Of a stretch of DNA of 64,000 nt, positions 19,354 to 36,014 are shown piece after piece. Location: contig NZ_CP089975.1 in the NCBI RefSeq assembly GCF_029581575.1, positions 1,984,001-2,048,000 on the forward strand. The letters are read 5' to 3'. Numbering within the stretch: position 1 is the stretch's first letter; the number at the start of each line of letters is the position of its first letter. The translations under genes were made by a program, and so were the position numbers. This DNA comes from Moraxella nasibovis. Its GTDB lineage: Bacteria; Pseudomonadota; Gammaproteobacteria; Pseudomonadales; Moraxellaceae. A model generated the notes under the pieces. The model worked only from the letters and a program-made list of their open reading frames with translations. It was not told where the DNA came from and searched no databases.

Positions 19354-20130
19354 TTACTTTAACCAAGTCAAAATCAACTCGCAGAACCGATTGCTTTGCT
19401 CCACATTAGCAATGTGCGAGGCGTTAATGGTGGCAAGGCTGGCATTTGGGGCATTTGCCACGATAAATTCGCCATCGGTAACGGTGGTCACAGGGTCATT
19501 TTCGCCTGCGATGACCAGCATGGAAACTTGGGCGTTTTTTAGCTCATCACGCAAATCCGCCACCGCCAAGGCTTCACAGCAGTTGGCATAGCCGTCTTTA
19601 TCACCCTTAGCCAAGTCATCGCTTAATTTTTTGACCGCATCAGGATGTTTAGCGATAAATTCATCAGTAAACCAACGGCTCGGAGCAGTATTGGCAATCG
19701 CTTGCAAACCATTTTCTCGCACGCTATTTGCCCTATCTTGCCAAGCTTCTTTATTGCCGATTTTGGCAGCGGTGTTAGAGACGATGATTTTGTTAAATTT
19801 GTGCGGAGCGTGAATAGCAAGCCAAATGCCTGTTAAGCCACCCATAGAAATCCCACAAAAATTCGCCTTTTCAACCCCCAAAAAATCCAGCAGAGCCACC
19901 ACATCGCCACCTAACTCATCAATGGTGTAGGCGTGATTTGGGGTGGAGCTTTGACCATGTCCACGGGTGTCATAGCAGATGATAAAAAAATCATCTTTTA
20001 AAGCGTCAATCTGGGCTTGCCACATCGTATAATTTGTTCCCAAAGAATTGGAGAAAATCAGTGCAGGCTTGGACTTTTCGCCAAAAGTTTGGTAATTTAA
20101 GCTGACATCTTTATTTTGAAAAATTGGCAT
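19354..20130 (-). CDS. pcaD: 3-oxoadipate enol-lactonase
   Basis: A 258-residue alpha/beta hydrolase that opens beta-ketoadipate enol-lactone to beta-ketoadipate, the step shared by the catechol and protocatechuate branches. The nucleophile elbow is GISMGG with Ser95, the acid is in GENDPV, and the base is in NASHIANVEQ. The ATG at 20130 has AAGGGGG before it and begins just after the pcaF stop at 20141, so it is the last gene of the catabolic run. Whether it should be called pcaD or catD depends on ancestry, which cannot be settled here. Confidence 0.93.
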   Translation of the reverse strand: MPIFQNKDVSLNYQTFGEKSKPALIFSNSLGTNYTMWQAQIDALKDDFFIICYDTRGHGQSSTPNHAYTIDELGGDVVALLDFLGVEKANFCGISMGGLTGIWLAIHAPHKFNKIIVSNTAAKIGNKEAWQDRANSVRENGLQAIANTAPSRWFTDEFIAKHPDAVKKLSDDLAKGDKDGYANCCEALAVADLRDELKNAQVSMLVIAGENDPVTTVTDGEFIVANAPNASLATINASHIANVEQSNRFCELILTWLK

Positions 20131-20140
20131 AATACCCCCT

Positions 20141-21343
20141 TTAAACTCTCTCAATAATCAAGGCAATGCCTTGCCCCACCCCAATACACATACTACATAG
20201 GGCGTATTTTCCGTCTGTTTTTTCAAGCTGATTGAGAGCGGTTGTTACCAATCTTGCCCCAGACGCACCGAGCGGATGTCCAATGGCAATCGCACCGCCA
20301 TTAGGGTTAACACGCGCGTCATCATCGGCAAGTCCCAAATCACGGGTACAAGCAAGTGCCTGAGCCGAAAACGCTTCATTAAGCTCAATGACATCCATTT
20401 GTTCTAGGGTCAAGCCTGTTTGGGCAAGGAGTTTTTTAATCGCAGGAGCAGGGGCAAAGCCCATAATGCGTGGCTCAATGCCCACCGTGGTGCTGGCGAT
20501 GATTTTGGCTCGTGGTGTAAGCCCAAACTTTGCCACCGCCTCATCAGAGGCAATCAGCACCGCACTTGCTCCGTCATTGATGCCTGAGGCATTGCCAGCC
20601 GTTACCGTACCGTCTGCTTTGACGACTGGTTTTAGCCTTGCCAACACTTCAAGGCTGGTTTCTCGTGGATGTTCGTCTTTATTTACAATAATCGGTTCGC
20701 CTTTTTTTGGCACAATCGTAACAGGGACGATTTCTTTGTCAAAAAAGCCATTGTCTTGGGCGATTTTGGTTAAAGTTTGGCTACGCAAGGCGAATTTGTC
20801 TTGGTCGGTGCGAGAGATGTTAAATTGCTCGGCGACATTTTCCGCCGTCTGCGGCATGGTGTCCACGCCGTGCAGTTCTTTTAATTTGGGGTTGATAAAC
20901 CGCCAGCCCATCGTAGTATCCTCGATTTTTTGGGTGCGGTCATAGGCATTTTCAGCTTTACCCATCACAAAAGGAGCTCGACTCATGCTCTCGACACCAC
21001 CTGCGATGATGAGGTTTGCCTCGCCTGATTTAATCGCACGGCTTGCCATCGCCACTGCATCCAATGACGAACCACACAAGCGGTTAATGGTGGTGGCTGG
21101 CACTTGTACAGGTAAGCCCGCCAAAAGTGCCGACATCCGTCCGACATTGCGGTTGTCCTCGCCTGCTTGGTTGGCACAGCCAAAAATCACATCGTCAATT
21201 TGAGCAAAATCCACCGCTGTGTTGCGTTCCATTAACGCCTTTAATACCACCGCTCCCAAATCGTCCGCTCGCACGCTTGCCAAAGCTCCGCCATAACGCC
21301 CAAAAGGGGTGCGAATAGCGTCAATGATGTATGCGTTTTTCAT
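20141..21343 (-). CDS. pcaF: 3-oxoadipyl-CoA thiolase
   Basis: A 400-residue thiolase that cleaves beta-ketoadipyl-CoA to succinyl-CoA and acetyl-CoA, the final step of the pathway. The acylated Cys90 lies in NRLCGSSLDAV, the histidine in GHPLGASGAR, and the second cysteine in CSMCIGVGQG near the C-terminus. Pathway position, between the CoA-transferase and the enol-lactonase genes, separates it from a general acetoacetyl-CoA thiolase. AAGGA lies before the ATG. A repeat-containing gap of 148 bases separates it from pcaJ. Confidence 0.94.
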   Translation of the reverse strand: MKNAYIIDAIRTPFGRYGGALASVRADDLGAVVLKALMERNTAVDFAQIDDVIFGCANQAGEDNRNVGRMSALLAGLPVQVPATTINRLCGSSLDAVAMASRAIKSGEANLIIAGGVESMSRAPFVMGKAENAYDRTQKIEDTTMGWRFINPKLKELHGVDTMPQTAENVAEQFNISRTDQDKFALRSQTLTKIAQDNGFFDKEIVPVTIVPKKGEPIIVNKDEHPRETSLEVLARLKPVVKADGTVTAGNASGINDGASAVLIASDEAVAKFGLTPRAKIIASTTVGIEPRIMGFAPAPAIKKLLAQTGLTLEQMDVIELNEAFSAQALACTRDLGLADDDARVNPNGGAIAIGHPLGASGARLVTTALNQLEKTDGKYALCSMCIGVGQGIALIIERV

Positions 21344-21390
21344 AAGTTATTCCTTAATATAATCAATTCATTTCAAAATTGCCTAAAAAC

Positions 21391-21471
21391 TGTTCGCCCT
21401 GAGTTTATCGAAGGGTAACGGTTTTTCCTTCATGGCTCGACAAGCTCACTTTGAGCGAAAAACTTAGTTTT
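21391..21471. repeat. Dispersed intergenic repeat, copy A
   Basis: It fills most of the pcaJ-pcaF gap. It is an imperfect inverted repeat (TTCGCCCTGAG...TCGA against TCGACAAGCTCA...GAGCGAA). It shares CAAGCTCACTTTGAG and ACGGTTTTTC in the same order with a second copy at 61571-61650. It resembles REP-like elements; no transposase is near. Confidence 0.6.
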
Positions 21472-21491
21472 AAGCTGAATTTACGACTTGT

Positions 21492-22142
21492 TTAAACTGT
21501 GGCATCAATCAAGCTTGCCCCTGTCAGACTTTGCAATTCGTCAAAACTCAATCCGTCAATTTTTTCAATCACTTTTAAACCTTCTGGCGTAACATCAATC
21601 ACGCACAAATCGGTATAAATTCTGTCCACGCAGTTTTTGCCTGTAACTGGATAAGTTAAGTTTTTGACGATTTTGGGTTCGCCTTTTTTGGTGGTGTGTT
21701 CGGTGGCAACAAAAACTTTTTTTGCCCCCACCGCCAAATCCATCGCCCCGCCCACCGCAGGAATGGCGTCAGGTTCGCCTGTGTGCCAGTTGGCAAGGTC
21801 GCCATCTGCATCCACCTGAAACGCCCCAAGTACACAAATATCAAGGTGTCCGCCACGCATCATCGTAAAGCTGTCGCCGTGATGAAAAAACGAACCGCCC
21901 GTAAGCATTGTCACAAATTCTTTGCCTGCATTGATAAGCTCTGGGTCTTCTTGCCCTTTGGGTGGAGCTTTACCAAAGGCTAAGAGTCCATTTTCAGAAT
22001 GCAAAAAAATCTCTTTGTCTTTGGGTAAGTAGTTGGCGATTTTGGTCGGCAAACCAATCCCCAAATTGACATAAGCCCCTTCATCAATGTCTTTGGCGAT
22101 ACGCTCGGCGATTTGGTCTCGGCTTAGTTTTTGATAAGTCAT
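21492..22142 (-). CDS. pcaJ: 3-oxoadipate CoA-transferase, beta subunit
   Basis: A 216-residue subunit of the succinyl-CoA:3-oxoadipate CoA-transferase, which activates beta-ketoadipate. The catalytic glutamate is Glu50 in HSENGLLAFG. GGAMDLAVGAKKVFVATEHT and VIDVTPEGL follow as in the family. The start at 22142 has AAGGGGATAGCA upstream. The partner subunit gene pcaI ends 32 bases before. Naming as pcaJ rather than catJ is by convention only. Confidence 0.93.
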   Translation of the reverse strand: MTYQKLSRDQIAERIAKDIDEGAYVNLGIGLPTKIANYLPKDKEIFLHSENGLLAFGKAPPKGQEDPELINAGKEFVTMLTGGSFFHHGDSFTMMRGGHLDICVLGAFQVDADGDLANWHTGEPDAIPAVGGAMDLAVGAKKVFVATEHTTKKGEPKIVKNLTYPVTGKNCVDRIYTDLCVIDVTPEGLKVIEKIDGLSFDELQSLTGASLIDATV

Positions 22143-22174
22143 TGCTATCCCCTTATTTACTCTTTTTATCTTGC

Positions 22175-22864
22175 TCATTCATCTTTCATGGCGTGCGTGA
22201 CGGATTTAAGCTCCACCACATGTTGCACAAAAATGCCCGGTGTGACGATGTGTTCAGGGTCAAGCTCGCCCAGCGCCACCACTTCGCCCACCTGAGCGAT
22301 GGTAACATCGGCCGCCATTGCCATAATCGGACCAAAGTTACGAGCGGATTTGTTGTACACCAGATTGCCCCAGCGGTCACCTTTGTGGGCTTTGATAAGG
22401 GCAAAATCGGCTTTGATTGGGTATTCAAGCACATAATCTTTGCCGTCAATGTGGCGAGTTTCTTTACCTTCGGCAAGTAGCGTACCAAAACCTGTCGGCG
22501 TGTAAATCGCCCCAAGTCCCATGCCCGATGCCTGAATACGACACGCCAAGTTGCCCTGTGGCACGACTTCAAGCTCGATTTTGCCCGCACGATACAGCTC
22601 GTCAAAGACATAAGAGTCGGCCTGGCGTGGGAATGAGCAGATGATTTTTTTCACCGCCCCTGTTTTGAGCAGGCGTGCCAAGCCATAATCGCCATTGCCT
22701 GCGTTGTTGCTGACAATGGTTAAATTTTTGACATTGCAATCGATGAGGGCGTCAATGAGTTCAGCAGGCTGACCTGCTGGCCCAAAACCGCCAATTAAAA
22801 TCGTTGCACCATCTTTAATTTGGCTCATCACTTGGGTAAGTGATTGGCTGGATTTATCAATCAT
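22175..22864 (-). CDS. pcaI: 3-oxoadipate CoA-transferase, alpha subunit
   Basis: A 229-residue alpha subunit. The CoA-binding glycine loop is LIGGFGPAGQPAELIDAL, and the family segment LTIVSNNAGNGDYGL follows. It forms the active transferase with the product of pcaJ. GGAG precedes the ATG, and the gene begins nine bases after benE ends, so benE and pcaIJ are on one message. Confidence 0.94.
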   Translation of the reverse strand: MIDKSSQSLTQVMSQIKDGATILIGGFGPAGQPAELIDALIDCNVKNLTIVSNNAGNGDYGLARLLKTGAVKKIICSFPRQADSYVFDELYRAGKIELEVVPQGNLACRIQASGMGLGAIYTPTGFGTLLAEGKETRHIDGKDYVLEYPIKADFALIKAHKGDRWGNLVYNKSARNFGPIMAMAADVTIAQVGEVVALGELDPEHIVTPGIFVQHVVELKSVTHAMKDE

Positions 22865-22873
22865 TGTTTACTC

Positions 22874-24079
22874 CTATTTTGTTTTTTTCATGAGTTTTTG
22901 GTGTTTTGGCTTATAAAAATAAAAACCAATCATGCCAAATACAATGCCCCAAAACACCGAACTTAGTCCAAACAAGCTCATGCCTGAGGCTGTTACCAAA
23001 AAGGTGATTAACGCAGGCTCTTTTTGTTCGCTGTGTTGCATGGCAATGCCAAGATTGGTCAATAATGCCCCAAGCAATGCCAAACCTGCCAGCATGGCGA
23101 TTAAACTTTTGGGAAGCATGGCAAACAAGCCCACCAAAGAACCTGCAAACACCGCCCCCACCAGATAAAACACGCCATTAAACACACCGCCGATATAGCG
23201 TTTGTCAGGGTTTTCGTGGCAATCTTTACCCATGCACAAAGCCGATGTTACCGCCGCCAGCACAATGCTAATCCCCCCAAACACCGCCACAGCGAGCGAC
23301 AATAGGCTTGCACTATTGATGATGGGCTGGCTGGATACTTGATAATTATTGAGCTTAATAAGCGCCATTCCGGGTAAAAATTGCCCTGTTAAATTTAAAA
23401 TCACCAACGGCAATGCCAAATTAAACACTGCCTGCCACGAGAATTCTGGGGCGATAAATAGGGGCTTGGCAATACTAATCGCAAACGGTCCTTTGGTTTG
23501 GATTAAGCCTGAAAAAAATGCCACCAAAAGCCCTGTCAATAGCACCCACACAATGGCATAACGAGGGGCAAAGCGTTTGGCGATGAGATATACCACCAGC
23601 ATACTACACGCCAGCACAGGCTCTGCCCCAAAGGCGTTAAATGCCCCCAGTCCAAAACCAAACAAAATCCCTGCCATCATACCACCTGCAATGCCCTGCG
23701 GAATGCAATGCAATACCTTATCAAAATAACCACTCATGCCAATCATGAGCGTTATCAGCCCTGCGATGAGATACGCCCCCACCGCCTCGCCCAGACTCAA
23801 ACTGGGAAATAGACTGACCAAAAGTGCCGTTCCGGGGATTGACCAAGCAAGTAAAATCGGCACTTTGTAGCGTAAGGACAGCACGATACTGCCAATCGCC
23901 GAACCAATAGACACCGCCCAAATCCACGAGGTCATCATCTCGGTGCCAATGCCTGCACTTTCGGCAACCTGAAAAAAAATCACCAAAGGTCCTGCGTAAG
24001 AAATCGTTACCGCAAGCAAACCCGCCACCATTGCCGACAAAGAAAAATCTTGCTTAAAATCCCTAAATACGCTCATCAT
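22874..24079 (-). CDS. benE: Benzoate:H+ symporter BenE
   Basis: A 401-residue inner-membrane transporter of the BenE family with about twelve hydrophobic segments. Typical blocks are TISYAGPLVIFFQ near the start and CIPQGIAGGMMAGILFGFG in the middle. BenE brings benzoate into the cell with protons. AAGGAG lies five bases before ATG 24079, and a second ATG follows immediately. It lies between benD and pcaI in the catabolic run. The AAHS transporter at 33494 may be a second benzoate or muconate importer. Confidence 0.92.
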   Translation of the reverse strand: MMSVFRDFKQDFSLSAMVAGLLAVTISYAGPLVIFFQVAESAGIGTEMMTSWIWAVSIGSAIGSIVLSLRYKVPILLAWSIPGTALLVSLFPSLSLGEAVGAYLIAGLITLMIGMSGYFDKVLHCIPQGIAGGMMAGILFGFGLGAFNAFGAEPVLACSMLVVYLIAKRFAPRYAIVWVLLTGLLVAFFSGLIQTKGPFAISIAKPLFIAPEFSWQAVFNLALPLVILNLTGQFLPGMALIKLNNYQVSSQPIINSASLLSLAVAVFGGISIVLAAVTSALCMGKDCHENPDKRYIGGVFNGVFYLVGAVFAGSLVGLFAMLPKSLIAMLAGLALLGALLTNLGIAMQHSEQKEPALITFLVTASGMSLFGLSSVFWGIVFGMIGFYFYKPKHQKLMKKTK

Positions 24080-24140
24080 CTGCTCTCCTTGTCAGCACCT
24101 TTGGCAAAGTTATTTTTTGCCAAAAGTTATCCCTGCAAAA

Positions 24141-24941
24141 TTATCCTTGGTCGCCACCGCCCACAGGCACCACCGTGCCTGTCATGTAGGACGACTCATC
24201 AGACGCCAAAAACAAAATCGCATTAACCTGCTCGTCGATCGTGCCATAACGCCCCAAAAAGGTGCGGTCAATGGTTTGTTCAACCACCTCTTGCATCCAA
24301 ATTTTTTCGTTCTCGCTTTGGGGATTGGTGTTTCTTGGGATTTTGCGTGGTGGAGCGTCTGTACCGCCTGTTGCTACCGCATTGACACGAATGCCGTCTT
24401 TGGCGTGTTCAAATGCCAAACTTGCGGTCAAAGCATTGACCCCGCCTTTGGCAGCTGAATACGGCACACGGTGAATGCCGCGAGTGGCGATGGATGAGAC
24501 ATTGACGATCACACCCCTTTGTTGGGCAATCATCTGGGGCAACACCGCATGACAGCACCACAAGGTAGGAAACAGCGAGCGGTTGATTTCTTTGATGATT
24601 TCTTGTTCGGCAAATTCCTCAAAGGGCTTCATCCAAATCGCCCCACCGACATTGTTAATCAGCACATCAATGCGACCAAATTTTTCAAGGGTTTGCTTGG
24701 CGACTTCTTGGGCTCCTGCATGCTGTTCCAAATCGGCTTTGACGATGAGATGATTGCCCTTTTTGCCAGTTTTTTGTAATTTGGCAATCTCATCGGCGGT
24801 TTCTTGCACAAAATCCGAAAAATCCACCAGCACCACATTTGCCCCCTCTTTGGCGACTTGCAAAGCCACGCCACGCCCAATACCCTGAGCGGCGCCTGTC
24901 ACAATCACCACCTTATCGTTAAAACGCTTGGTTCTCGACAT
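24141..24941 (-). CDS. benD: Benzoate diol dehydrogenase
   Basis: A 266-residue short-chain dehydrogenase that converts the benzoate cis-diol to catechol and CO2 with NAD+. The cofactor motif GAAQGIGRG lies at about residues 16-24, NNVGG in the middle, and the catalytic YSAAKGG near 160. The segment APPRKIPRN is typical of BenD. It is detached from benABC by the amidohydrolase and MFS genes, unlike the compact benABCD of Acinetobacter. Confidence 0.94.
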   Translation of the reverse strand: MSRTKRFNDKVVIVTGAAQGIGRGVALQVAKEGANVVLVDFSDFVQETADEIAKLQKTGKKGNHLIVKADLEQHAGAQEVAKQTLEKFGRIDVLINNVGGAIWMKPFEEFAEQEIIKEINRSLFPTLWCCHAVLPQMIAQQRGVIVNVSSIATRGIHRVPYSAAKGGVNALTASLAFEHAKDGIRVNAVATGGTDAPPRKIPRNTNPQSENEKIWMQEVVEQTIDRTFLGRYGTIDEQVNAILFLASDESSYMTGTVVPVGGGDQG

Positions 24942-25020
24942 GATTACTCCTGTTATACTTCATGTTGTCGTGCTTTGATTTAAAATAGAAGGGTCTTTTA
25001 AATCCCTACCAGTAGCGGCG

Positions 25021-26415
25021 TTAAGCCGATTGCGCAGTCTTTTTAGGAATCATTACAAGTACTGCCAATGTTGCTAGTACACCAAAAGCCACCATCGTCA
25101 AGAGGGCATATTGACCTGCTAAATGCACGCCAGCATCCTTAAAGGCGCTAAAAATAGTCGCTCCTGTGGCGATGCCAAAGGACGCACCCAAAGCACTTGC
25201 CATTTTAAACACACCTGCCGCCACGCCTGCTTTATCAAGAGGTACATTGACCATCGCACAGTCCGCTGCAGGGGTAGAATAACAACCCAAACCAAAGCCA
25301 AACACCGCAAAAGACACAATGACCCACCACATATACACTTCGTGCGACACAAAGGTCATGGACAGCCCCAATGCTCCAACCGCCGTGATTGCCGTGCCGA
25401 GCCACATTGGGGTTTTGTAGCCGAATTTTTGTAGCAGTTTTTCGCTCACACGAATCATAATCATGACCATGACGACATAGCCCAAAGATTTGACCCCTGC
25501 TTGAAATGCAGTCAAGCCATGTCCTTTTTGCAAATAGGTATTGATAATAATAATCGTGCCTGCCATGCAATTTAATAAGAAGTTGGACAAACACGCCCCG
25601 CTATAACCACGACTGTTGAACAGCGAAAAATCCAAAAATGCCTGATGTTTTTTCTTGATTTCGGTGCGAAAAAACACAATGCCCATAATGACCGCCCCAG
25701 CGAGCATGGTTAGCGTAAAACCATTCGTAAACCCAAGTCTAAACCCTTTGGTGATGAGCAAATTTAAACACAAAAGCCCAATCACACAGCTAAACAGCCC
25801 CACATAGTCATAACGAGTGGTAGAAGCCTCGTGCGATTTGCTCTCTGGCGTGCCCTTGATGAGAAGCATGCCGACCACCGAAATGGCGATTGACAGCAAG
25901 AAAATGCTTTTCCAGCCCATGCTCGTGGCGATTGCCCCACCGACAAAAGACGAAAGCCCTGAACCACCGAACGAGCCAATCGACCAAAAGCTAAACGCCC
26001 TTTGTCGTTTGGCTCCGTGATAATAATTTTTGATGATGGACAAAGTCGCTGGCATGATACAGGCGGACGACAGACCTTGCAGCACTCGCCCAAGCCCAAA
26101 GGTGAAAGGATTGGTGCTAAAATACAGCACCAAACAGGCGATGATGTTTAGAGTAAAGCCCACATAAGTCAAACGCACTCGCCCAAATTTATCCGCCAAT
26201 CCGCCCATTAAAATGATAAAACAGCCAGAAAACAGCGAGCCTAAGCTAATCACCGCATTGAGTGAGGTATCTGACATGCCCAAATCTTTTTGAATGGACG
26301 GCACGACATTAAACATCGACTGATAAAACAGCCAAAAGGTCAAAACCCCTAGCACCATGCCGATGAGCAGTTTGTCGTTGCCACGAAACTCATTTTGTGT
26401 TTGTATTGTTGTCAT
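25021..26415 (-). CDS. MFS transporter, DHA2-like 14-segment type
   Basis: A 464-residue transporter with about fourteen hydrophobic segments and the loop motif GGLADKFGRVRLTYVG. General features match the DHA2 (EmrB/SmvA) group, often drug exporters, but its place between the amidohydrolase and benD suggests a role in uptake or release of an aromatic compound such as hippurate. That is inference from position. AAAGG precedes the ATG, and only 19 bases separate it from the amidohydrolase gene. Confidence 0.85.
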   Translation of the reverse strand: MTTIQTQNEFRGNDKLLIGMVLGVLTFWLFYQSMFNVVPSIQKDLGMSDTSLNAVISLGSLFSGCFIILMGGLADKFGRVRLTYVGFTLNIIACLVLYFSTNPFTFGLGRVLQGLSSACIMPATLSIIKNYYHGAKRQRAFSFWSIGSFGGSGLSSFVGGAIATSMGWKSIFLLSIAISVVGMLLIKGTPESKSHEASTTRYDYVGLFSCVIGLLCLNLLITKGFRLGFTNGFTLTMLAGAVIMGIVFFRTEIKKKHQAFLDFSLFNSRGYSGACLSNFLLNCMAGTIIIINTYLQKGHGLTAFQAGVKSLGYVVMVMIMIRVSEKLLQKFGYKTPMWLGTAITAVGALGLSMTFVSHEVYMWWVIVSFAVFGFGLGCYSTPAADCAMVNVPLDKAGVAAGVFKMASALGASFGIATGATIFSAFKDAGVHLAGQYALLTMVAFGVLATLAVLVMIPKKTAQSA

Positions 26416-26434
26416 AAAAAATCCTTTTTTTAAA

Positions 26435-27631
26435 TCACTTCAAATAGTTTTCCACAAGACCACAAAAGTACGCTCCAGCCGTAGCGATAATCTCATCATT
26501 AAAATCGTATTCTGGGTGATGTACCATGCACGCCAAATCACCGCCCCCATTGCCGACAAAACAGTAATTGCCGTTGGGGTTAGCTTCTAGCATAAAGGCA
26601 AAATCCTCACTTCCCATGAGCGGAGCAATGCCTGTATGAACTTTGTCCTCGCCCACCAAATTTTGGGCGACTTTGATGGCAAATTCGGTCGCATCACTGC
26701 CATTGACGGTGGGCGGACAGCCGTTGATGTGCTCAACTTCGGCACTCGCCCCAAAACTTTTGGCTTGAAATTCCACCACTTCTGTAATGCGAGATAGCAC
26801 CTTTTTGCGGACTTCGGCATTTAGGGTGCGAACGCTTAATTTTAACAGGGCAGAATCATTGACGACATTGGGGACATTGCCAGAGGTGAGTTGCCCTACC
26901 GTAATCACCGCTTGCTCAAGCGGACTGACATTGCGAGAGACAATACTTTGGAGGGCAATGGCGATATGACACGCCACCAAAGTCGCATCAATGCCGTATT
27001 CAGGCATCGCTCCATGACTGCCCACGCCTTTGACATGCACATGCAAAGTGTCGGAGGACGCCATGACCGCCCCAGTTTTAAAATAAAACTCGCCTGTCGC
27101 TAGGCGTGGCATGTTGTGCATGGCAAAAATCACATCGCAAGGAAATTTGTCAAACAAGCCATCTTCGAGCATGACACGACCGCCATAAAGCAGCTCTTCG
27201 GCAGGCTGAAAAATCAAATGCACTGTGCCGTTAAAGTTACGAGTTTTGGCAAGTTGTTTGGCACAAGCAAGCAAAATGGTGCTATGCCCGTCATGCCCAC
27301 AGCCATGAAATTTGCCTGCGACTTGGCTGGCATAAGGTTTACCCGTCTTTTCCACAATGGGCAAAGCATCCATATCGGCACGCAGTCCGATGGCTTTATC
27401 GCTGTTGCCGTTTTTTAAGGTGGCGACAATGCCTGTTTTGGCAAGCCCACGATGAACGGTATAGCCCCATTCAGTCAGGTACTTGCCGATGAGATTACTG
27501 GTTTCAACCTCTTCAAAACCCAGCTCAGGATTTTGGTGAATGGTTTGGCGAATGCTCGCAAAAAACGCTTGCTCACTCGTCAAATCGCTCAAATGCTGCG
27601 GGTTTATGGCAATGGTATTGGACAGGGACAT
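26435..27631 (-). CDS. M20-family amidohydrolase, candidate hippurate hydrolase
   Basis: A 398-residue metallopeptidase-fold amidohydrolase of the M20D group (hippurate hydrolase, IAA-amino acid hydrolase). Metal-site blocks are LRADMDALP, HGCGHDGHS, FQPAEE and GSEDFAFML, all intact. The start at 27631 has a perfect AAGGAG. Hippurate hydrolase splits benzoylglycine to benzoate and glycine. Lying between benC and benD, this enzyme would feed benzoate to the neighbouring genes. The substrate is inferred from context; the M20D family also includes enzymes acting on other N-acyl amino acids. Confidence 0.85.
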   Translation of the reverse strand: MSLSNTIAINPQHLSDLTSEQAFFASIRQTIHQNPELGFEEVETSNLIGKYLTEWGYTVHRGLAKTGIVATLKNGNSDKAIGLRADMDALPIVEKTGKPYASQVAGKFHGCGHDGHSTILLACAKQLAKTRNFNGTVHLIFQPAEELLYGGRVMLEDGLFDKFPCDVIFAMHNMPRLATGEFYFKTGAVMASSDTLHVHVKGVGSHGAMPEYGIDATLVACHIAIALQSIVSRNVSPLEQAVITVGQLTSGNVPNVVNDSALLKLSVRTLNAEVRKKVLSRITEVVEFQAKSFGASAEVEHINGCPPTVNGSDATEFAIKVAQNLVGEDKVHTGIAPLMGSEDFAFMLEANPNGNYCFVGNGGGDLACMVHHPEYDFNDEIIATAGAYFCGLVENYLK

Positions 27632-27664
27632 ATTTGCTCCTTTTGATAGATGATGACAAATTTC

Positions 27665-27710: not shown

Positions 27711-27747
27711 TTTATGAAATTTGCAAGCAATCCATTTTGCCGCCATC

Positions 27748-28845
<1,098 letters not shown>

Positions 28846-28863
28846 TCACCAATCCCATTTTTA

Positions 28864-29364
28864 TCAAATATGATAAACATCAATGACTTGGTGAATGTAG
28901 TCATTTTTTAGAACGACATATTTGCTCAAAATTTTAAAGCTGTCGGCTGAAACATCGATTTCGTAGCGAGACATGCCAAAATGTTGGTAAATGGTTTTGT
29001 AACGAAAACTGAATGTATGCCAGTTAAAACGCACGGTGGCTTTGTTACCCTCAACCTTTTCAACTTCAATATTGTTGATGTTGTGGCTGGTGCGAGTGTC
29101 TGGAATGGTCGCTGACGAGCGCTCAGTTTTGATACGAAACACACGGTCTTCAAGTCCTTGACGATCTGGATAATAAATCAAGGAAATTTCCGTCATCGGG
29201 TCAGTAACCAGCGTGTCATCGTCATCCCATGCTGGCATCCAAAATGACGCCTCTGGTGCGTAGCATTCTAGCCAATCGTCCCATTGTTCATCGTCCAAAA
29301 AGCGGGCTTCTTGGTACAAAAATTGGCTGATTTTGTGTTGCAATTCGGCAGATACTAAGCTCAT
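28864..29364 (-). CDS. benB: Benzoate 1,2-dioxygenase, small subunit
   Basis: A 166-residue beta subunit of the ring-hydroxylating oxygenase. It shows the family's start FLYQEARFLDDEQWDDWLE and DPMTEISLIYYPDRQGLEDRV. It is structural and pairs with BenA in an alpha3beta3 complex. The ATG overlaps the benA stop by one base (TGATG), with AAGGAG upstream, so the subunits are translationally coupled. Confidence 0.96.
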   Translation of the reverse strand: MSLVSAELQHKISQFLYQEARFLDDEQWDDWLECYAPEASFWMPAWDDDDTLVTDPMTEISLIYYPDRQGLEDRVFRIKTERSSATIPDTRTSHNINNIEVEKVEGNKATVRFNWHTFSFRYKTIYQHFGMSRYEIDVSADSFKILSKYVVLKNDYIHQVIDVYHI

Positions 29365-30743
29365 CAGACTTCTCCTTTTTCCAACTTTTGTTCGGTTTCG
29401 ATGGCTTCTTTCATCACTTCCACCCAATGCTCGTGCTGGGCAAGATACAAGCCTTCATCTTCGGTTTTGACACCGCTTAATTTTGGTTTTAAGCCGATTT
29501 CTTGGGCAAATTCGTCCGCCCCATGCACCCAGTGGCTTGCCCCACGGCACATATCATTCCATTCAATATCGATACCTGCGTAACCGACTTGGCAAGAGCG
29601 AAACTCTTCTAGGTCGTCTGGCGTTGCCATACCTGATGCGTTAAAGAAATCTTCGTATTGGCGGATGCGGCGTTGGCGGTTTTCGGCACTTTCGCCTTTT
29701 GGTGCGATACAATAAATCGTAACTTCGGTTTTATTGACCGCCAATGGGCGTAAAATACGGATTTGCGAGCCGAATTGGTCCATTAAATACACATTGGGAT
29801 ACAAGCACAAATTACGAGAACGCTCAATCATCCATTTTGCCATCGCCTCGCCGTAGAGCTCTTTATAAGTGTCGTATTGCGCGTAGTTTGGACGGTCTTC
29901 TGGGTTTGCCCATTGTGTCCAAAGAAGCATATGCCCATGCTCAAAGCCATATGAGCCACCGCCTTGTTTGCCCCAACCGCCTGCACTCATGGCACGGATA
30001 TTGTCCGCCCCTGCTTGTTTTTCTTTTCTTTGTTGGGTGGTTGCCGCATAGTTCCAATGCACCGCAGAAACATGGTAGCCGTCCGCACCATTTTCAGCGG
30101 TCAGTTTCCAGTTGCCTTCATAAGTATAAGTTGATGAACCACGCAATACTTCTAAGCCATCTTGAGCTTGACCGACAATCATGTCAATGATTTTGGTCGC
30201 TTCGCCAAGATATTCTTCAAGTGGCAGGACATCAGGATTTAAACTGCCAAACAAAAAGCCTTTGTAGCTTTCAAAACGAGCGACTTTTTTCAAATCGTGC
30301 GAACCGTCTTTATTAAAACTTTCAGGATAACCTGCGTCTTTAGGGTCTTTGACTTTTAAAAGTTTGCCAGAGTTGTTAAAGGTCCAACCGTGAAATGGGC
30401 AAGTATAAGATGACTTATTGCCCTTTTTATAACGGCAAAGCTGAGCCCCACGATGTGAACAGGCATTAATCATCGCATTTAATTCGCCATCTTTGTTGCG
30501 AGCAATGATGATTGGTTGGCGACCAATATAAGTCGTATAATAATCGTTGATTTCTGGAATTTGGCTTTCATGTGCCAAATACACCCAGTTGCCCTCAAAG
30601 ATGTATTTCATTTCCAAATCAAATAAAGTTTGGTCGGTAAATACAGAGCGATGAACTTTATATTCGCCAGTTTCTGGATTTTCTACTAAAAGCTCGTCAA
30701 TGCGGTCTAAATGACTGGTATTGACAACAGGAATCTTTGGCAT
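29364..30743 (-). CDS. benA: Benzoate 1,2-dioxygenase, large subunit
   Basis: A 459-residue catalytic subunit that adds O2 to benzoate, giving the 1,2-cis-diol. Rieske ligands are Cys95, His97, Cys115 and His118 in CSHRGAQLC and CPFHGW. The mononuclear iron site is in [13 protein letters not shown] with a later Asp. The size matches BenA and XylX. Its promoter region (30744-30812) holds a partial CatM/BenM site. Benzoate rather than toluate is the expected substrate because the genes sit with a catechol ortho-cleavage pathway. Confidence 0.95.
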
Positions 30744-30776
30744 AAATTAACTCCTTGTATCTGCCTATCTGGGTAA

Positions 30777-30791
30777 ATACATTGAATGAAT
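30777..30791. promoter_or_regulatory. Partial CatM/BenM site before benA
   Basis: ATAC-N7-GAAT matches seven of eight fixed bases of the known ATAC-N7-GTAT consensus. It lies 34-48 bases before the benA ATG, overlapping where the promoter should be. Confidence 0.5.
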
Positions 30792-30812
30792 GTTGTTGTA
30801 ATTTGGATTAGA

Positions 30813-30843
30813 TTGGCTTGCAAAATCTTCGTTTGCAAGCCAA
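30813..30843 (-). terminator. Hairpin between catA and benA
   Basis: A perfect 12-bp inverted repeat, TTGGCTTGCAAA with TTTGCAAGCCAA, and a 7-base loop, 16 bases after the catA stop. No T run follows, so it may reduce read-through or stabilise the cat message rather than stop transcription fully. Confidence 0.65.
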
Positions 30844-30859
30844 TGTACAGACTTAACAA

Positions 30860-31783
30860 TCAGCCCTGAGCTCGTCTTCTGTCCACTTCGGTAGTTGGGG
30901 CGGTTTGGGTGTCTTTGGTTAGTTTAAAATCAAAGGCGATGTGCTTAAATGGCTTATCTAGGTTGTATTCCGCCAAATCCTCTGCACTTGATTTGTCGGT
31001 CGCCACCGCCACCAAGCCTTCACGAGTACCAAAGGCAAAGTCGTCCCATAGGTATTTGTCGCCTTCGATGTTAAACTGAGTGGTGAGCTTACGGAAGCCG
31101 TCAGCCGTGATGAAGTAGTGAACATGCGATGGACGCTGACCATGACGACCTAGCTTGTCAAGCAGGGCTTGCGTCGGTCCATTTGGTGGGCAACCATAGC
31201 CAACTGGCATGGTAGTTTGGGCACGATAGCGGCCGTTTTCATCGGTATAAATGGTACGACGAAGGTTGAAATCAGATTGTGATTTATCAAAGAATGAATA
31301 GTTGCCCTGACCATTGGCGTGCCACATTTCTACTTTGGCGTTTGGTACGATGTTGCCATCCACATCGGTTACCACACCCTCAATGATGAGCGTGTCAATC
31401 TTGTCAGATTCAGAGCCATCGTCCATGCGGGCAAAGCCCACGCTCTCAGGAGCTCCCGCCACATACAGTGGACCTTCGATGGTACGAGGTGTACCGCCTT
31501 GCTCTACGCCAGCTTGACGGTCTTTTTCATCTTCAAGTAAGTCCATGAAGTGTTCAAGACCCAAACCCGGAACCAGCAAACCCACTTCATTGGCCTGACC
31601 CAAATCAGAGAGGTACTCCATGCCTTTCCAAAGCTCGGTTTGCGTGATGTTCAAATCCACAATGGCTTCAAACAAATCACCCAAAAGACGAACCACAATC
31701 TCTTGCACACGAGCGTCCACTTCACCTGTAGCGGTGTCCACATTCATTTTTTTAACCAAAGCATCAATTTCTTGACGGTTCAT
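30860..31783 (-). CDS. catA: Catechol 1,2-dioxygenase
   Basis: A 307-residue intradiol dioxygenase that cleaves catechol to cis,cis-muconate. The Fe(III) ligands are Tyr162 (NYSFFD), Tyr196 (PVGYGCPP), His220 and His222 (RPSHVHYF). The N-terminal helical dimer domain is complete. A good AAGGAG precedes the ATG at 31783. It follows catC on the same strand; in Acinetobacter baylyi catA lies apart from catB and catC, so this grouping differs. Confidence 0.97.
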   Translation of the reverse strand: MNRQEIDALVKKMNVDTATGEVDARVQEIVVRLLGDLFEAIVDLNITQTELWKGMEYLSDLGQANEVGLLVPGLGLEHFMDLLEDEKDRQAGVEQGGTPRTIEGPLYVAGAPESVGFARMDDGSESDKIDTLIIEGVVTDVDGNIVPNAKVEMWHANGQGNYSFFDKSQSDFNLRRTIYTDENGRYRAQTTMPVGYGCPPNGPTQALLDKLGRHGQRPSHVHYFITADGFRKLTTQFNIEGDKYLWDDFAFGTREGLVAVATDKSSAEDLAEYNLDKPFKHIAFDFKLTKDTQTAPTTEVDRRRAQG

Positions 31784-31890
31784 ACTTCTTCTCCTTGTCA
31801 TGGTGTAGCTGGCATCTTCAAATGGCTGGCTACAGTTGGGTTAATTGCTATGAGAGTGCATAGCCACTTTTGTAAATTAAAAATTAAAAA

Positions 31891-32181
31891 TCAGCTGTCA
31901 TCATCACGAATCGATGAAGGATGGCGATTTAAGGGCATGACCTCAATGGTCATAAACGGATACAGAGGCAATCCTTGCAAGATGTTATGCAATTCCTCGT
32001 TGCTTTCCACATCAAAGATGGAGATGTTGGAATACTGCCCGCTAATTCGCCATAGATGTCGCCATTTGCCTTGTTTTTGTAGCTCTTGGGAGTAGGCTTT
32101 TTCGGTCGCCTTGATTTCATCAGCTTTTTGTTTGTCAAAATCCAATGGAATATTGACATCCATTTTCACATGATAAAGCAT
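31891..32181 (-). CDS. catC: Muconolactone delta-isomerase
   Basis: A 96-residue small decameric enzyme that isomerises muconolactone to beta-ketoadipate enol-lactone. Family blocks MLYHVKMDVNIPLD, WRISGQYSNISIFDV and LPLYPFM are present. ATG 32181 is chosen because AAGGAG lies six bases upstream; the ATG two codons earlier is too close to that ribosome site. It starts 25 bases after catB ends. Confidence 0.96.
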   Translation of the reverse strand: MLYHVKMDVNIPLDFDKQKADEIKATEKAYSQELQKQGKWRHLWRISGQYSNISIFDVESNEELHNILQGLPLYPFMTIEVMPLNRHPSSIRDDDS

Positions 32182-32206
32182 GGTCATCTCCTTATTTGAG
32201 CTTAAA

Positions 32207-33319
32207 TTAAGCTCGTCTTAAATTGTCAATCTTGTTTTCATTCAAATCAATGCCAAGTCCTGCACCTGTTGGCACTTTTAGGGTGAAATTTTCATACACC
32301 AAAGGTTTACTCAAAATCTCTTCAGTCAGTAGAAGTGGGGCAAACAGCTCCGTGCCATACGCCAAATTGTCAAAAGTACTAAAAGCATGAGCCGAAGCAA
32401 TCGTCCCCACCGCACCCTCAAGCATGGTACCGCCATAGAGGTCAATACCTGCAACTTTGGCGATGGTAGCAATTTGACAGGCCTCCATGAGACCGCCTGC
32501 TTGCTCGATTTTGACGGCAAAAACATTGGCACAGTGATTTTTGGCAAGTTTGTAGGCATTGGTCGGACACATCACCGCTTCGTCCGCCATAATTGCCACA
32601 TCAAAACGCTCGGTCAATCTTGCCAGAAGTTCCACATCGTGAATGGCACAAGGCTGTTCAATCAAATCGATACCGCCGTCCTGCAAGGCTTGTATGCCTT
32701 TGATACACTGCATTTCAGACCACGCACGATTGACATCAACACGGATGCTAACCTCTTTGCCCAATGCTTTTTTAATCGCCACCACATGTTCGACATCTTC
32801 TTCAACTGAACGAGAGCCGATTTTAAGTTTAAAAAAATTGTGGCGCTTTACCTCAATCATTTTTTTGGCTTCGGCGATGTCTTTTTCGGTGTCACCAGAG
32901 GCAAGCACCCAAAGCACAGGCAATTCATCACGAAGTCGCCCACCAAGAAGCTCACTGACGGGTAAGTTTAATTTCTTGCCCAAAATGTCGAACAGCGCCG
33001 TTTGCACCGCGCATTTGGCAAAGCGGTTGCCCATGATGTGCTTGTCAATCATCTGCATGGTCTGGGCGATGTTTGGTTCGCCTTTTAGACCAGTCAAAAG
33101 TGGGGCAAAATAGGTGTCAAGGTTGGTTTTGATGCTTTCAGGAGATTCCTCACCGTAGGAGAGTCCGCCGATGGTGGTCGCCTCACCCCAGCCAACGATA
33201 CCATCATGGGTGGTGATTTTTACCAAAACGAGGGTTTGTTTTTGCATGGTCGCCACAGACATTTTGTGTGGTCTGATGGTCGGTATGTCTAGAATGATGC
33301 TTTCTAATGACTGATACAT
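32207..33319 (-). CDS. catB: Muconate cycloisomerase
   Basis: A 370-residue enolase-superfamily enzyme that turns cis,cis-muconate into muconolactone. The catalytic KLK is Lys164-Leu-Lys166, and metal ligands lie in RVDVNRAW, DLIEQP and MADEAVM. It is the first gene of the long catabolic run. The 174-base upstream gap carries an exact CatM/BenM operator centred 108 bases before the ATG, so it is probably induced by muconate. Confidence 0.97.
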   Translation of the reverse strand: MYQSLESIILDIPTIRPHKMSVATMQKQTLVLVKITTHDGIVGWGEATTIGGLSYGEESPESIKTNLDTYFAPLLTGLKGEPNIAQTMQMIDKHIMGNRFAKCAVQTALFDILGKKLNLPVSELLGGRLRDELPVLWVLASGDTEKDIAEAKKMIEVKRHNFFKLKIGSRSVEEDVEHVVAIKKALGKEVSIRVDVNRAWSEMQCIKGIQALQDGGIDLIEQPCAIHDVELLARLTERFDVAIMADEAVMCPTNAYKLAKNHCANVFAVKIEQAGGLMEACQIATIAKVAGIDLYGGTMLEGAVGTIASAHAFSTFDNLAYGTELFAPLLLTEEILSKPLVYENFTLKVPTGAGLGIDLNENKIDNLRRA

Positions 33320-33367
33320 ATTTCTCTGCCCTAAGGTAATTTCCCTGCTGTCAGTTTTGCTTTATCT

Positions 33368-33434
33368 ATACTCTAAAAGAATGTAACTAAAAAAACCAAT
33401 ATTATTTTTGCATTGTTTCATACTTTTTTGGTAT
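33368..33434. promoter_or_regulatory. CatM/BenM operator pair before catB
   Basis: An exact ATAC-TTTTTTG-GTAT lies at 33420-33434, and a partial ATAC-N7-GAAT at 33368-33382, 52 bases closer to catB. In Acinetobacter baylyi, CatM and BenM bind ATAC-N7-GTAT plus weaker sites nearby at catB and benA. The layout here matches that architecture. Confidence 0.75.
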
Positions 33435-33441
33435 AGTTCAA

Positions 33442-33473
33442 TCAAAAAAAACGGTTGCCAAACTGACAACCGC
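33442..33473 (-). terminator. Terminator after the AAHS transporter gene
   Basis: On the minus strand a stem GCGGTTG/CAACCG (arms at 33452-33457 and 33467-33472) is followed by T8. It lies 20 bases after the transporter stop and next to the catB operator, isolating catB from read-through. Confidence 0.8.
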
Positions 33474-33493
33474 TTTTAAATTCTCATTCCTTC

Positions 33494-34804
33494 TTAGCCA
33501 TTGGCGTTTTTCATGTTCACCATAAAAATCGCCACCGCAGCAATAACCCCCGGAATGGCAATCGCCATAAAATTCATCTGATGGCTTAGCTGCAATCCTA
33601 ACAAAGTACCTGTTAAAACTGGACCTACGATCGCCCCAATACGACCCACGCCAGAGGCAAATCCCATGCCTGTCGAACGCACTGTCGAAGGGTAATATTG
33701 TGATACAAAAGTATAAAGCAAAATCTGCGATCCAATCGTTGCGGCACCCGCAATGGCAATCAAAGTGTACAGCACAGGGGCAGGACTGTTAAAACCAAGC
33801 AATACAAGTGACACTGCACCGATGGTGAACATACTCACAAGCACAGGCTTGATGTGGAATTTATCTGCCAAAATACCACCCCCAATCGCTCCAATCATAC
33901 CCCCAATGTTTAGCGCAAACAAAAACAACATACTCGCTCCCAGCGAATAACCCGCCCCAATCATGAGCTTAGGCAGCCAGCTTGCCAAGGCATACACCAT
34001 GAGCAGGCACATAAAGAATGCCACCCAGAACATGATGGTACTGGTCGTTCTGCCTTGCTGAAATAGAGCTTTAAGCGGCGCTGAATCTTCCACCTGAACG
34101 GCGATGGGTTCGATCTCAAAGTCTTTGTTTGCATAGCTTGGGTCGATTTTAGTGATGATTTTCTTAGCCTCATCATCACGACCTTTGCGTTTTAAATAAA
34201 ACAAAGACTCAGGAAGCATCGCCCAAATCACTGGCATCAAGAGTATGGGAATGCCTGCAAGCATGAACACGATTTGCCAGCCATATACAGGGACGAGCGC
34301 CTTGCCTAAGAGCGCAGACGCCATGCCGCCGATGGCATAGCCACTGAACATGATGGCAACGAGCGTACTTTTCATGCGTTTTGGGGCAAATTCTGTGGTA
34401 AGCGCAACCACATTTGGCATGACTCCGCCAATACCAAGCCCTGCAATAAAACGCAACACAGCAAACTGCAAAGGATTGTCAGCAAACGCTCCTAAAAAGG
34501 TAAACCCTGCAAACAAAAACACGCACAGCATGATGGTTTTTTTACGCCCCAGCTTGTCAGACAGTGAGCCAAACCCAATCGCCCCAAACATCATGCCAAA
34601 CAAAGCAGAGCTGGCAAGCCAACCTGCCTGCTGAGCAGTCAAATCCCATTGCTCCATCAAAAGTGGTAGTGCTACACCATAAATGGCAAGATCGTAGCCA
34701 TCAAAAATAATAATAAGCAAACACCATAAAAGCACCACCCAGTGAAAAGGGGTGAACTTAGCATTATCAATAAACTGGTCTAGATTGACCTTTTCGGCAC
34801 TCAT
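33494..34804 (-). CDS. AAHS-family aromatic acid:H+ symporter, BenK/MucK-like
   Basis: A 436-residue MFS protein with twelve hydrophobic segments. The AAHS signature DGYDLAIYGVALP lies in the first segment, and GSLSDKLGRKKTIM in loop 2-3. The family imports benzoate (BenK), muconate (MucK) or 4-hydroxybenzoate (PcaK); benzoate or muconate fits the context. AAGGAG precedes the ATG at 34804. It is divergent from the LysR regulator and upstream of catB, and its promoter region holds a partial CatM/BenM site. Confidence 0.9.
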   Translation of the reverse strand: MSAEKVNLDQFIDNAKFTPFHWVVLLWCLLIIIFDGYDLAIYGVALPLLMEQWDLTAQQAGWLASSALFGMMFGAIGFGSLSDKLGRKKTIMLCVFLFAGFTFLGAFADNPLQFAVLRFIAGLGIGGVMPNVVALTTEFAPKRMKSTLVAIMFSGYAIGGMASALLGKALVPVYGWQIVFMLAGIPILLMPVIWAMLPESLFYLKRKGRDDEAKKIITKIDPSYANKDFEIEPIAVQVEDSAPLKALFQQGRTTSTIMFWVAFFMCLLMVYALASWLPKLMIGAGYSLGASMLFLFALNIGGMIGAIGGGILADKFHIKPVLVSMFTIGAVSLVLLGFNSPAPVLYTLIAIAGAATIGSQILLYTFVSQYYPSTVRSTGMGFASGVGRIGAIVGPVLTGTLLGLQLSHQMNFMAIAIPGVIAAVAIFMVNMKNANG

Positions 34805-34896
34805 AACAGCTCCTTGTTCAAAGTATAAATAGGTTTGTTGCCAACCCAATGTAATCACTTTTATTTGTAATTGCAAAACCAAATAAATATCAATCC

Positions 34897-34911
34897 ATAT
34901 CAAATAGGTAT
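34897..34911. promoter_or_regulatory. Partial CatM/BenM site before the transporter
   Basis: ATAT-CAAATAG-GTAT differs from the consensus at one fixed base. It lies about 100 bases before the transporter ATG, the same distance as the exact site before catB. Confidence 0.5.
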
Positions 34912-35021
34912 AAAGCCAAGACGCATCATAACAATGAAAATACAAAGAGTCTCTCAAACCCTATAAAATCAAGATTTTCAACACGATTCAATTTATTACA
35001 AGACGGTTATCCTATGAATTC

Positions 35022-35036
35022 ATACTTTTAAAATAT
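35022..35036. promoter_or_regulatory. Partial CatM/BenM site before the regulator
   Basis: ATAC-TTTTAAA-ATAT differs from the consensus at one fixed base. It lies 52-66 bases before the LysR start, a position suited to autoregulation. Confidence 0.45.
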
Positions 35037-35087
35037 AGAAATTTTTGTTAAGATTTGACAAATCCCAAACTTTAAAGGTTGCTAGAT

Positions 35088-36014
35088 ATGGACATCCGTC
35101 ATCTAAAATATTTTGTTGCTGTGGTGGAAGAGCAAAGTTTCACCAAAGCCTCTGAGCGATTGTTCATTGCTCAGCCGCCTTTGAGCCGTCAGATTCAAAA
35201 CCTAGAAGATGAGCTTGGCTTACAATTGCTCCAAAGGGGCAGTCGCCCTGTCAAGACCACCGATGCAGGGCAGTTTTTCTATCAGCATGCCAAAAAAGTT
35301 CTAAGTAACATCGAGCAAATGGTATCAATGACGAAACGAGTAGGAAAAACCGATCAGACACTTAAAATCGGTTTTGTTGGTTCATTGCTTTTGGGGCTGC
35401 TGCCTCAGATTATTTATGAATTTAGAAAGCTTTTGCCAAATGTATCTATTGATTTGGTAGAAATGGGCACATTGGAGCAAATGGAGGCATTAAAAAAAGG
35501 TGAGATTGATGTGAGCTTTGGGCGATTAAAATTTTCAGACCCCAGCATCAGACGCATTTTACTTAGAAATGAACCTTTGGTGTTGGCAATCAATAAATAT
35601 CATCCACTAGCGCAGCACAATGATGGCGTGCATTTGGCAGACATTGTTGATGAAGTGATACTCTGCTATCCCAATACTGGCAATCAAAATTTTGCAAACT
35701 ACATCAACAACTTATTTGCAGAACATGGATTGACACCGAGCAATATCAAATACCTTTCCAATATTCAGCTTGCACTTGGTATTGTCGCCTCCGGTGAGGG
35801 CGTATGCATCGTTCCTTATAACAGTCGTTCAATACACATGGCAAATTTACAATATTTACCCATTTTGGACATTGGTGCGGTCAGTCCGATATTTTTATCT
35901 TTTCAAGAAGGCAATGATAATGAATACATTCATTTGCTACTAAGAACCATTGAGCTGATCTATCAAAAAATCGAAATAGACACCAAAATCACTCTTACTC
36001 AAACATTTAATTAA
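35088..36014 (+). CDS. LysR-type regulator, CatM/BenM-like
   Basis: A 308-residue LysR regulator with an N-terminal winged helix: DIRHLKYFVAVVEEQSFTKA, and QPPLSRQIQNLEDELG as recognition helix. The effector domain includes LKIGFVGSLLLGLLPQI. The helix-turn-helix and the GFVGSLL segment are very close to Acinetobacter CatM and BenM, which respond to muconate and (BenM) benzoate. The real start is the ATG at 35088 with AAAGG upstream. CatM and BenM cannot be told apart from this. It is the only regulator in the catabolic region, so it may govern both branches. Confidence 0.9.
   Translation: MDIRHLKYFVAVVEEQSFTKASERLFIAQPPLSRQIQNLEDELGLQLLQRGSRPVKTTDAGQFFYQHAKKVLSNIEQMVSMTKRVGKTDQTLKIGFVGSLLLGLLPQIIYEFRKLLPNVSIDLVEMGTLEQMEALKKGEIDVSFGRLKFSDPSIRRILLRNEPLVLAINKYHPLAQHNDGVHLADIVDEVILCYPNTGNQNFANYINNLFAEHGLTPSNIKYLSNIQLALGIVASGEGVCIVPYNSRSIHMANLQYLPILDIGAVSPIFLSFQEGNDNEYIHLLLRTIELIYQKIEIDTKITLTQTFN

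Follow-up and report, generated by a model that had tools for sequence, protein, structure and literature searches.

The ben-cat-pca cluster and its regulator

We have analysed a stretch of 64,000 nucleotides (the window; positions are counted from its first letter) of the genome of Moraxella nasibovis, which consists of 2.23 Mb in one contig (NZ_CP089975.1, where the window covers positions 1,984,001 to 2,048,000). It carries a cluster of benzoate catabolic (ben-cat-pca) genes in which two further genes, coding for an M20D amidohydrolase and an MFS transporter, are found between benC and benD. We think it rather probable, judging from the sequences and their neighbourhoods, that this pair is a mobile module inserted into the ben operon of Moraxella and that it frees benzoate from N-benzoyl amino acids. 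From open reading frames (ORFs) and profile scans, the order on the minus strand, going from 34804 down to 19354, is benK, catB, catC, catA, benA, benB, benC, M20D, MFS, benD, benE, pcaI, pcaJ, pcaF and pcaD, with a regulatory gene diverging from them:

35079-36014 (likely ATG start at 35088), plus strand: benM/catM-type LysR regulator, divergent; BenM 408.9 bits (exception cut-off 600), CatM 370.8 bits (also below cut-off), LysR Pfam domains
33494-34804, minus strand: benK-like aromatic acid/H+ symport MFS transporter; TIGR00895, 413.5 bits, just below the cut-off of 418.55; start shifted from 34957 to an ATG after AAGGAG
33420-33434, no strand assigned: ATAC-N7-GTAT, putative operator, 101 bp upstream of the catB start
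32207-33319, minus strand: catB, muconate cycloisomerase; TIGR02534 (subfamily), 577.3 bits, cut-off 335
31891-32187, minus strand: catC, muconolactone delta-isomerase; TIGR03221, 155.9 bits, cut-off 130.6
30860-31783, minus strand: catA, catechol 1,2-dioxygenase; TIGR02439, 450.9 bits, cut-off 392
29364-30743, minus strand: benA, benzoate 1,2-dioxygenase large subunit; TIGR03229, 880.7 bits, cut-off 781
28864-29364, minus strand: benB, benzoate 1,2-dioxygenase small subunit; TIGR03232, 279.6 bits, cut-off 225.6
27748-28761, minus strand: benC, electron transfer component; NF040810, 530.8 bits, cut-off 430
26435-27631, minus strand: M20D amidohydrolase/aminoacylase, the inserted hydrolase, 398 residues; TIGR01891 (subfamily), 345.5 bits, cut-off 153.8
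25021-26415, minus strand: MFS transporter paired with the M20D gene; Pfam MFS_1, 161 bits, no NCBIfam cut-off reached
24141-24941, minus strand: benD, diol dehydrogenase; NF040811, 446.8 bits, cut-off 380
22874-24079, minus strand: benE, benzoate/H+ symporter; TIGR00843 (subfamily), 478.9 bits, cut-off 203
22175-22864, minus strand: pcaI, CoA-transferase subunit A; TIGR02429 (subfamily), 397.8 bits, cut-off 128.5
21492-22178, minus strand: pcaJ, CoA-transferase subunit B; TIGR02428 (subfamily), 294.4 bits, cut-off 243.6
20141-21343, minus strand: pcaF, 3-oxoadipyl-CoA thiolase; TIGR02430, 726.4 bits, cut-off 597
19354-20130, minus strand: pcaD, 3-oxoadipate enol-lactonase; TIGR02427, 290.1 bits, cut-off 255.9; start shifted from 20154

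A preliminary description of this locus had counted fourteen consecutive same-strand genes, from catB to pcaD, covering the whole pathway. The fourteen are real, all on the minus strand and in the order given there, but the run is one of fifteen, to which the BenK-like transporter has to be added. Thirteen of the fourteen pass an NCBIfam cut-off, the exception being the MFS transporter. All steps are encoded (benABC, benD, catA, catB, catC, pcaD, pcaIJ and pcaF, with their NCBIfam models above cut-off), and by its gene content the cluster is confirmed as a complete benzoate/catechol branch of the beta-ketoadipate pathway. Several TTG starts were better placed at internal ATGs, that of the M20D gene among them.

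The LysR regulator is nearest to BenM among the NCBIfam models, yet stays under the exception cut-off. The pattern ATAC-N7-GTAT, which we take to be the BenM/CatM operator consensus, has two exact matches in the window against 0.33 expected, a number that was reached in 4 of 100 shuffles, and all ten loci (nine genomes) checked have an exact copy some 75-130 bp ahead of catB. No match, even allowing one mismatch, is found at the M20D-MFS pair, which fits its co-transcription with the ben genes. Directly past benM, and convergent with it, there are genes for an RND efflux permease and a periplasmic adaptor (36085-40412).

The inserted pair and its stand-alone relatives

The placement of the amidohydrolase and a transporter exactly between benC and benD, already noticed in the preliminary description, is confirmed by the coordinates: 116 bp separate benC from the M20D gene, 19 bp the M20D from the MFS gene and 79 bp the latter from benD, and an AAAGGAG ribosome-binding site precedes the M20D ATG start. 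Among 299 Moraxellaceae genomes (the one of the window included), an ortholog of the hydrolase is present in five others, at 77-97% identity. The pair lies between benC and benD in four relatives, Moraxella cuniculi DSM 21768 (L081/G004), L082/G007, L171/G005 and L172/G013, so that with the window five Moraxella genomes share the insertion site. Another Moraxella genome, G014 (L167), has the same cluster minus the pair, with benC directly before benD, and as the same order is found elsewhere (see below) the pair must be seen as an insertion into a standard cluster. The low non-synonymous divergence of the M20D gene from its L082 counterpart (dN 0.12, with synonymous divergence, dS, saturated), together with the strong ribosome-binding site, argues that the gene is in use. 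We found no clear compositional sign of recent transfer, the GC content of the M20D (0.485) and MFS (0.467) genes being inside the range of the cluster, 0.40-0.51 (the stretches measured for the M20D and benK genes began slightly upstream of their final starts). In the tree, which includes three of the five ben-embedded Moraxella enzymes and in which three PDB rows are long branches of unsure placement, a single supported clade unites the Moraxella enzymes; that of genome G017 branches just outside it and Neisseria weixii comes next.

The order of the genes had been described as different from that of Acinetobacter. This does not hold in general, as six of ten Acinetobacter-like loci (L201-L210; genus g28, a call based on DNA matches of L209 to Acinetobacter) have the full catBCA-benABCDE-pcaIJFD order, three more end at the edge of the stretch and one has ben genes without cat or pca in view; at most, the contrast applies to strain ADP1, with the ben/cat layout that this strain is said to have. 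In a second Moraxellaceae genus (g22, presumably Psychrobacter), the loci of all 23 BenC-bearing genomes of the sample (leaving out a near-identical second copy in G166) share the layout too, with variants in L192 (benE moved), L195 (nothing after benC) and L200 (ending in benE). Comparing related genomes has therefore been informative in showing that the order is common across Moraxellaceae, for which reason we have dropped it as a point of interest, and that the inserted pair is the distinctive part.

Other genes are found in or near the Moraxella clusters. The two closest relatives have a gene for an MBL-fold protein between catA and benA (L171:12910-13953 in G005 and L172:6489-7532 in G013), absent in the window, with a lipoprotein-like signal (by eye) and, for the L171 copy, RNase Z/GntH-like scores below cut-off. 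A citrate/sulfate-type transporter is inserted in the clusters of G013 (L172:15481-16881) and G014 (L167:7290-8600). In M. cuniculi (L164:5920-10829) a second, 38-40% identical M20D gene lies near benM, preceded by two dehydrogenase-like genes (by eye) and followed by apparently split DUF3100-like ORFs; M20D followed by DUF3100 or a look-alike recurs away from ben genes in Moraxella loci L165, L166, L173 and L174 (only the L166 protein was profile-scanned).

Beyond the sample, 278 relatives of the hydrolase were present in 84,980 collected genomes, and we kept the best 80, with neighbourhoods of up to 10 kb on each side. An MFS homologue directly follows the M20D gene, in the same order, in 31 of the 44 non-Moraxella loci (L084-L127), indicating that the pair travels as a unit; in more distant loci (L128-L160) the same queries detected neither an MFS homologue nor a ben cluster. 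Besides, regulators of ca. 790 residues belonging to one cluster are present in 23 of 47 loci (L081-L127), in at least 20 of them divergent and within 600 bp upstream of the M20D gene (the other three are L106 and L118, with a slight overlap of the called ORFs, and L122, whose M20D ORF fell outside the clustering). The one regulator that was profile-scanned has an AraC-type domain and reaches 393 bits with an AryK-like profile, below the cut-off of 850. The pair in the window has the make-up of this module, M20D and MFS homologues adjacent on the same strand, and there is no divergent AraC-type regulator beside its M20D gene: benC occupies that spot, and the regulator cluster has no members among L081-L083. 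A set of helix-turn-helix regulator, M20 and MFS genes appears also in plasmid records of Escherichia coli (a conjugative plasmid, from a cow) and Citrobacter freundii. Loci L161-L163 include a Klebsiella pneumoniae record too; the “plasmid” records of this species that we examined have chromosome-like genes (sap, psp) or are chromosome-sized (H2), which leaves E. coli and C. freundii as the sound plasmid cases.

The hydrolase, the transporter and their possible substrates

The hydrolase belongs to M20D by its catalytic and dimerisation domains (PF01546, PF07687 and TIGR01891). When aligned with the aminoacylase AgaA of Corynebacterium striatum, the positions of the metal ligands Cys105, His107, Glu141 and His168 are conserved (the fifth, His370, falls outside the alignment), and so are Asn251 and Arg264, which bind the alpha-carboxylate; an enzyme with these positions would be expected to hydrolyse N-acyl amino acids whose carboxylate is free. 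Of the residues that bind glutamine in AgaA, Glu140 and Asp340 are retained, with Asn191 replaced by Thr and Asp301 by Asn, so the AgaA-type set is incomplete. The same Thr/Asn pair is found in 20 of 23 other module rows (all except L119, L120 and L121), most of which come from bacteria whose loci show no ben genes. The search query began 20 residues upstream of the preferred start, and the alignment does not include L089, dropped because its ORF was outside the ortholog cluster, or the ORF of L122.

M20D genes are also found in the ben clusters of other lineages. In ten g22 genomes a second type of M20D gene lies ca. 6 kb from BenC, always (L176-L185) on the same strand between pcaD and benK, that is, in 10 of the 23 ben-bearing genomes of this genus; 11 others show pcaD without an M20D gene at this place, and the stretches of two (L195, L200) do not reach this end of the cluster. 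This enzyme is 31% identical to that of the window and has a signal-peptide-like N-terminus (by eye). Its ortholog is present in 13 of 105 g22 genomes, ten of which are the ben-bearing ones, an association with a hypergeometric probability of 7.6e-6 (ancestry ignored, and taking 23 of 105 as the BenC total, which assumes that the 299-genome sample covers all 105). At AgaA position 301 the ben-linked enzymes have Lys (nine of ten) or Gln (one), and the copies outside ben clusters have Glu in three cases (L214, L216, L217) and Lys in L215, at a contig end of G188 with no ben genes in view. In a presumably Pseudomonas-like family (f15), with BenC in 101 and M20D in 80 of 198 genomes at the thresholds used, genome G626 has the same-strand run benABCD-benK-catBCA-benE-oprD-M20D-pcaR-(CoA-transferase-like, by eye)-pcaF-pcaD, its M20D gene being next to that of an OprD porin on one side and to that of a PcaR-type regulator on the other; in G720, of the same family, the M20D gene is 19 kb away and on the opposite strand. 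A class-level draw of 274 genomes gave BenC (E<=1e-90) in only two, one of them the window, too few to inform. In the tree a single starred branch carries the enzymes of g22 and of G626, so these recruitments are counted as separate by position and host and not by origin. Both enzymes are probably periplasmic. A cytoplasmic hydrolase would need an importer, and one of the periplasmic type could hand its benzoate to BenK or BenE. This recurrence of M20D enzymes in ben clusters is stronger support for a hydrolase that frees benzoate from N-benzoyl amino acids than the position of the pair was by itself.

Some further observations concern the g22 genomes. A KdgT-like permease gene lies between benC and benD in G230 (L177:8948-10033) and, by eye, in G248 (L183:9033-10118), and a glutamate dehydrogenase gene adjoins the M20D gene in G230 (L177:17239-18585). 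In two genomes (L168:3115-7338 and L169:5931-10088) an M20D gene 49-51% identical to that of the window follows a kynureninase-like gene (by eye), with one gene in between (a transporter, by eye, in L168); here a link to N-acyl kynurenine or tryptophan is possible.

The preliminary description had pointed to hippurate (benzoylglycine) as the natural substrate of the cluster. It was right in that the M20D family includes a hippurate hydrolase, HipO of Campylobacter jejuni, listed in a table of PMC11511702, the same part of which places in this family enzymes that act on dipeptides and on N-acyl amino acids other than hippurate. An excerpt of PMC7946887 adds that nearly all the benzoate absorbed by humans is excreted as hippuric acid, its main excreted form. 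The glycine cleavage gene gcvP was found in the genome, so that the amino acid released, if it were glycine, could be used. However, the enzyme reaches no NCBIfam equivalog, its Thr/Asn pair is common to module members away from ben genes, and the Lys or Gln of the ben-linked g22 enzymes hints at other amino acids. That the enzyme is a hippurate hydrolase with hippurate as the main natural substrate of the cluster thus appears doubtful to us; hippurate is a fair guess, as one of several benzoyl-amino acids that are plausible substrates.

The best NCBIfam match of the transporter is LfrA (136 bits against a cut-off of 825), and its closest named families are the EmrB/LfrA-type drug efflux pumps. 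From this resemblance it could be argued that the MFS protein is an efflux pump and that the pair detoxifies or expels aromatic conjugates with no import at all, something that we consider very unlikely. The GP of motif C, in transmembrane helix 5, is the antiporter mark of the DHA2/EmrB drug:H+ family; it is present in E. coli EmrB and missing in all 36 readable sequences of the MFS cluster, and its absence favours uptake over efflux. Moreover, in a catabolic operon there would be little sense in pairing an exporter with a cytoplasmic hydrolase. In Neisseria weixii (L127:11281-12613) the MFS partner is split in two open frames and the M20D gene is intact.

Proposed role and comparison with known systems

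The release of benzoate by the inserted pair could work as follows. In one clade of Moraxella, a mobile hydrolase-transporter module, lacking the AraC-type regulator that often goes with it elsewhere, would have landed between benC and benD and come under the ben/cat operon. The MFS protein would then probably import one N-benzoyl amino acid or various N-aroyl amino acids, and the cytoplasmic di-metal M20D enzyme would cleave the amide, the benzoate going to BenABCD and the amino acid presumably to general metabolism. Of the preliminary description, the complete pathway and the inserted pair stand, and its idea of a hydrolase supplying the pathway with benzoate is supported by the M20D-ben linkage in other lineages.

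Several observations weigh against this interpretation. There is no ben-cat-pca cluster in any of the 44 non-Moraxella loci within the up to 10 kb examined on each side (there are isolated paralogue matches of 28-34% in L096, L100 and L101), and in Moraxella G017 (L083/L175), a genome 93% complete, the pair is present with no BenC at E<=1e-100, from which it follows that benzoate supply was not the original job of the pair. In g22 the ortholog occurs also in three genomes without BenC, and in G103, G258 and one of the two G188 copies its surroundings are unrelated. The 94 ben-bearing Acinetobacter-like genomes have no M20D gene (window query, E<=1e-40; positions by eye) within 50 kb of BenC, and G626, one genome of 101 in a family with about one M20D per genome, is not beyond chance. 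Pocket positions vary among the ben-recruited enzymes of different lineages, which favours a general role on benzoyl-amino acids and does not single out glycine. Finally, the consulted part of PMC12802175 contains no hippurate phenotype of Moraxella. As to precedents, our full-text searches of the open-licence literature yielded none for an M20D enzyme or hippurate hydrolase with ben genes, nor for hippurate use by these genera.

One might conclude that the pair is a passenger, a mobile module for scavenging peptides or N-acyl amino acids that is in the ben operon by accident and acts on a substrate unrelated to benzoate. The module does occur by itself in Enterobacteriaceae and other bacteria, on plasmids too, and frequently has a regulator of its own; G017 has it without BenC, and unrelated genes (the citrate/sulfate-type transporter, the KdgT-like permease, glutamate dehydrogenase, the MBL-fold protein) also enter these clusters; some M20D enzymes are Met-X-specific carboxydipeptidases, according to a title in the reference list of PMC11511702. 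Nevertheless, the same site has been kept in five genomes with low dN, and M20D enzymes of another subfamily occur in ben clusters elsewhere, so that we regard an accidental presence as unlikely and prefer the release of benzoate from N-benzoyl amino acids. A wider proposition, which we make only tentatively, is that the ben-cat-pca supercluster of Moraxellaceae and their relatives may act as a docking platform with at least three M20D captures, a cytoplasmic enzyme with its importer in Moraxella and probably periplasmic ones in the second Moraxellaceae genus and in the Pseudomonas-like genome. It would allow a hydrolase-first growth of animal-associated bacteria on the N-benzoyl amino acids of their hosts, with amino acid preferences specific to each lineage.

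If the preferred interpretation is true, the cluster offers a directly testable gene set, one regulator governing an importer, a hydrolase and a full aromatic pathway, in which a mobile aminoacylase cassette has been wired into an aromatic operon, and host aromatic conjugates may be substrates of the M20 aminoacylases encoded by enterobacterial chromosomes and plasmids.

The cluster itself is an ordinary, known pathway, and the new part is the M20D-MFS pair inside the ben operon. With the ben-cat-pca genes of Acinetobacter it shares all the enzymes, the BenM/CatM-type regulator, the BenK- and BenE-type transporters, the operator-like site and the catBCA-benABCDE-pcaIJFD order, and it differs by the M20D and MFS genes that one clade of Moraxella has between benC and benD. 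The g22 hydrolase, too, is encoded inside a ben-cat-pca cluster, on the strand of its genes, but it is of another subfamily, is placed between pcaD and benK, has the signal-peptide-like N-terminus and lacks an MFS gene of the pair's type beside it. The AryK-like/M20/MFS module of Enterobacteriaceae, Orbaceae, Neisseriaceae, Saezia and others has a hydrolase 50-68% identical to that of the window (55-57% in the plasmid examples) and, in 31 of 44 loci, an MFS homologue as its neighbour in the same order; there it comes with a regulator in about half of the loci and with no ben genes in view, whereas the Moraxella pair has no regulator of its own and is inside ben. Among the characterised enzymes, C. 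striatum AgaA (6SLF), Bacillus subtilis YxeP (1YSJ) and Arabidopsis ILL2 (1XMB) are 35-37% identical to the window hydrolase, close enough for their solved structures to give its fold, and have in common with it the metal-ligand positions and the Asn and Arg of the alpha-carboxylate site, AgaA differing at the glutamine-binding Asn191 and Asp301. What sets the Moraxella enzyme apart from these three and from HipO is its operon context, which is here that of benzoate catabolism.

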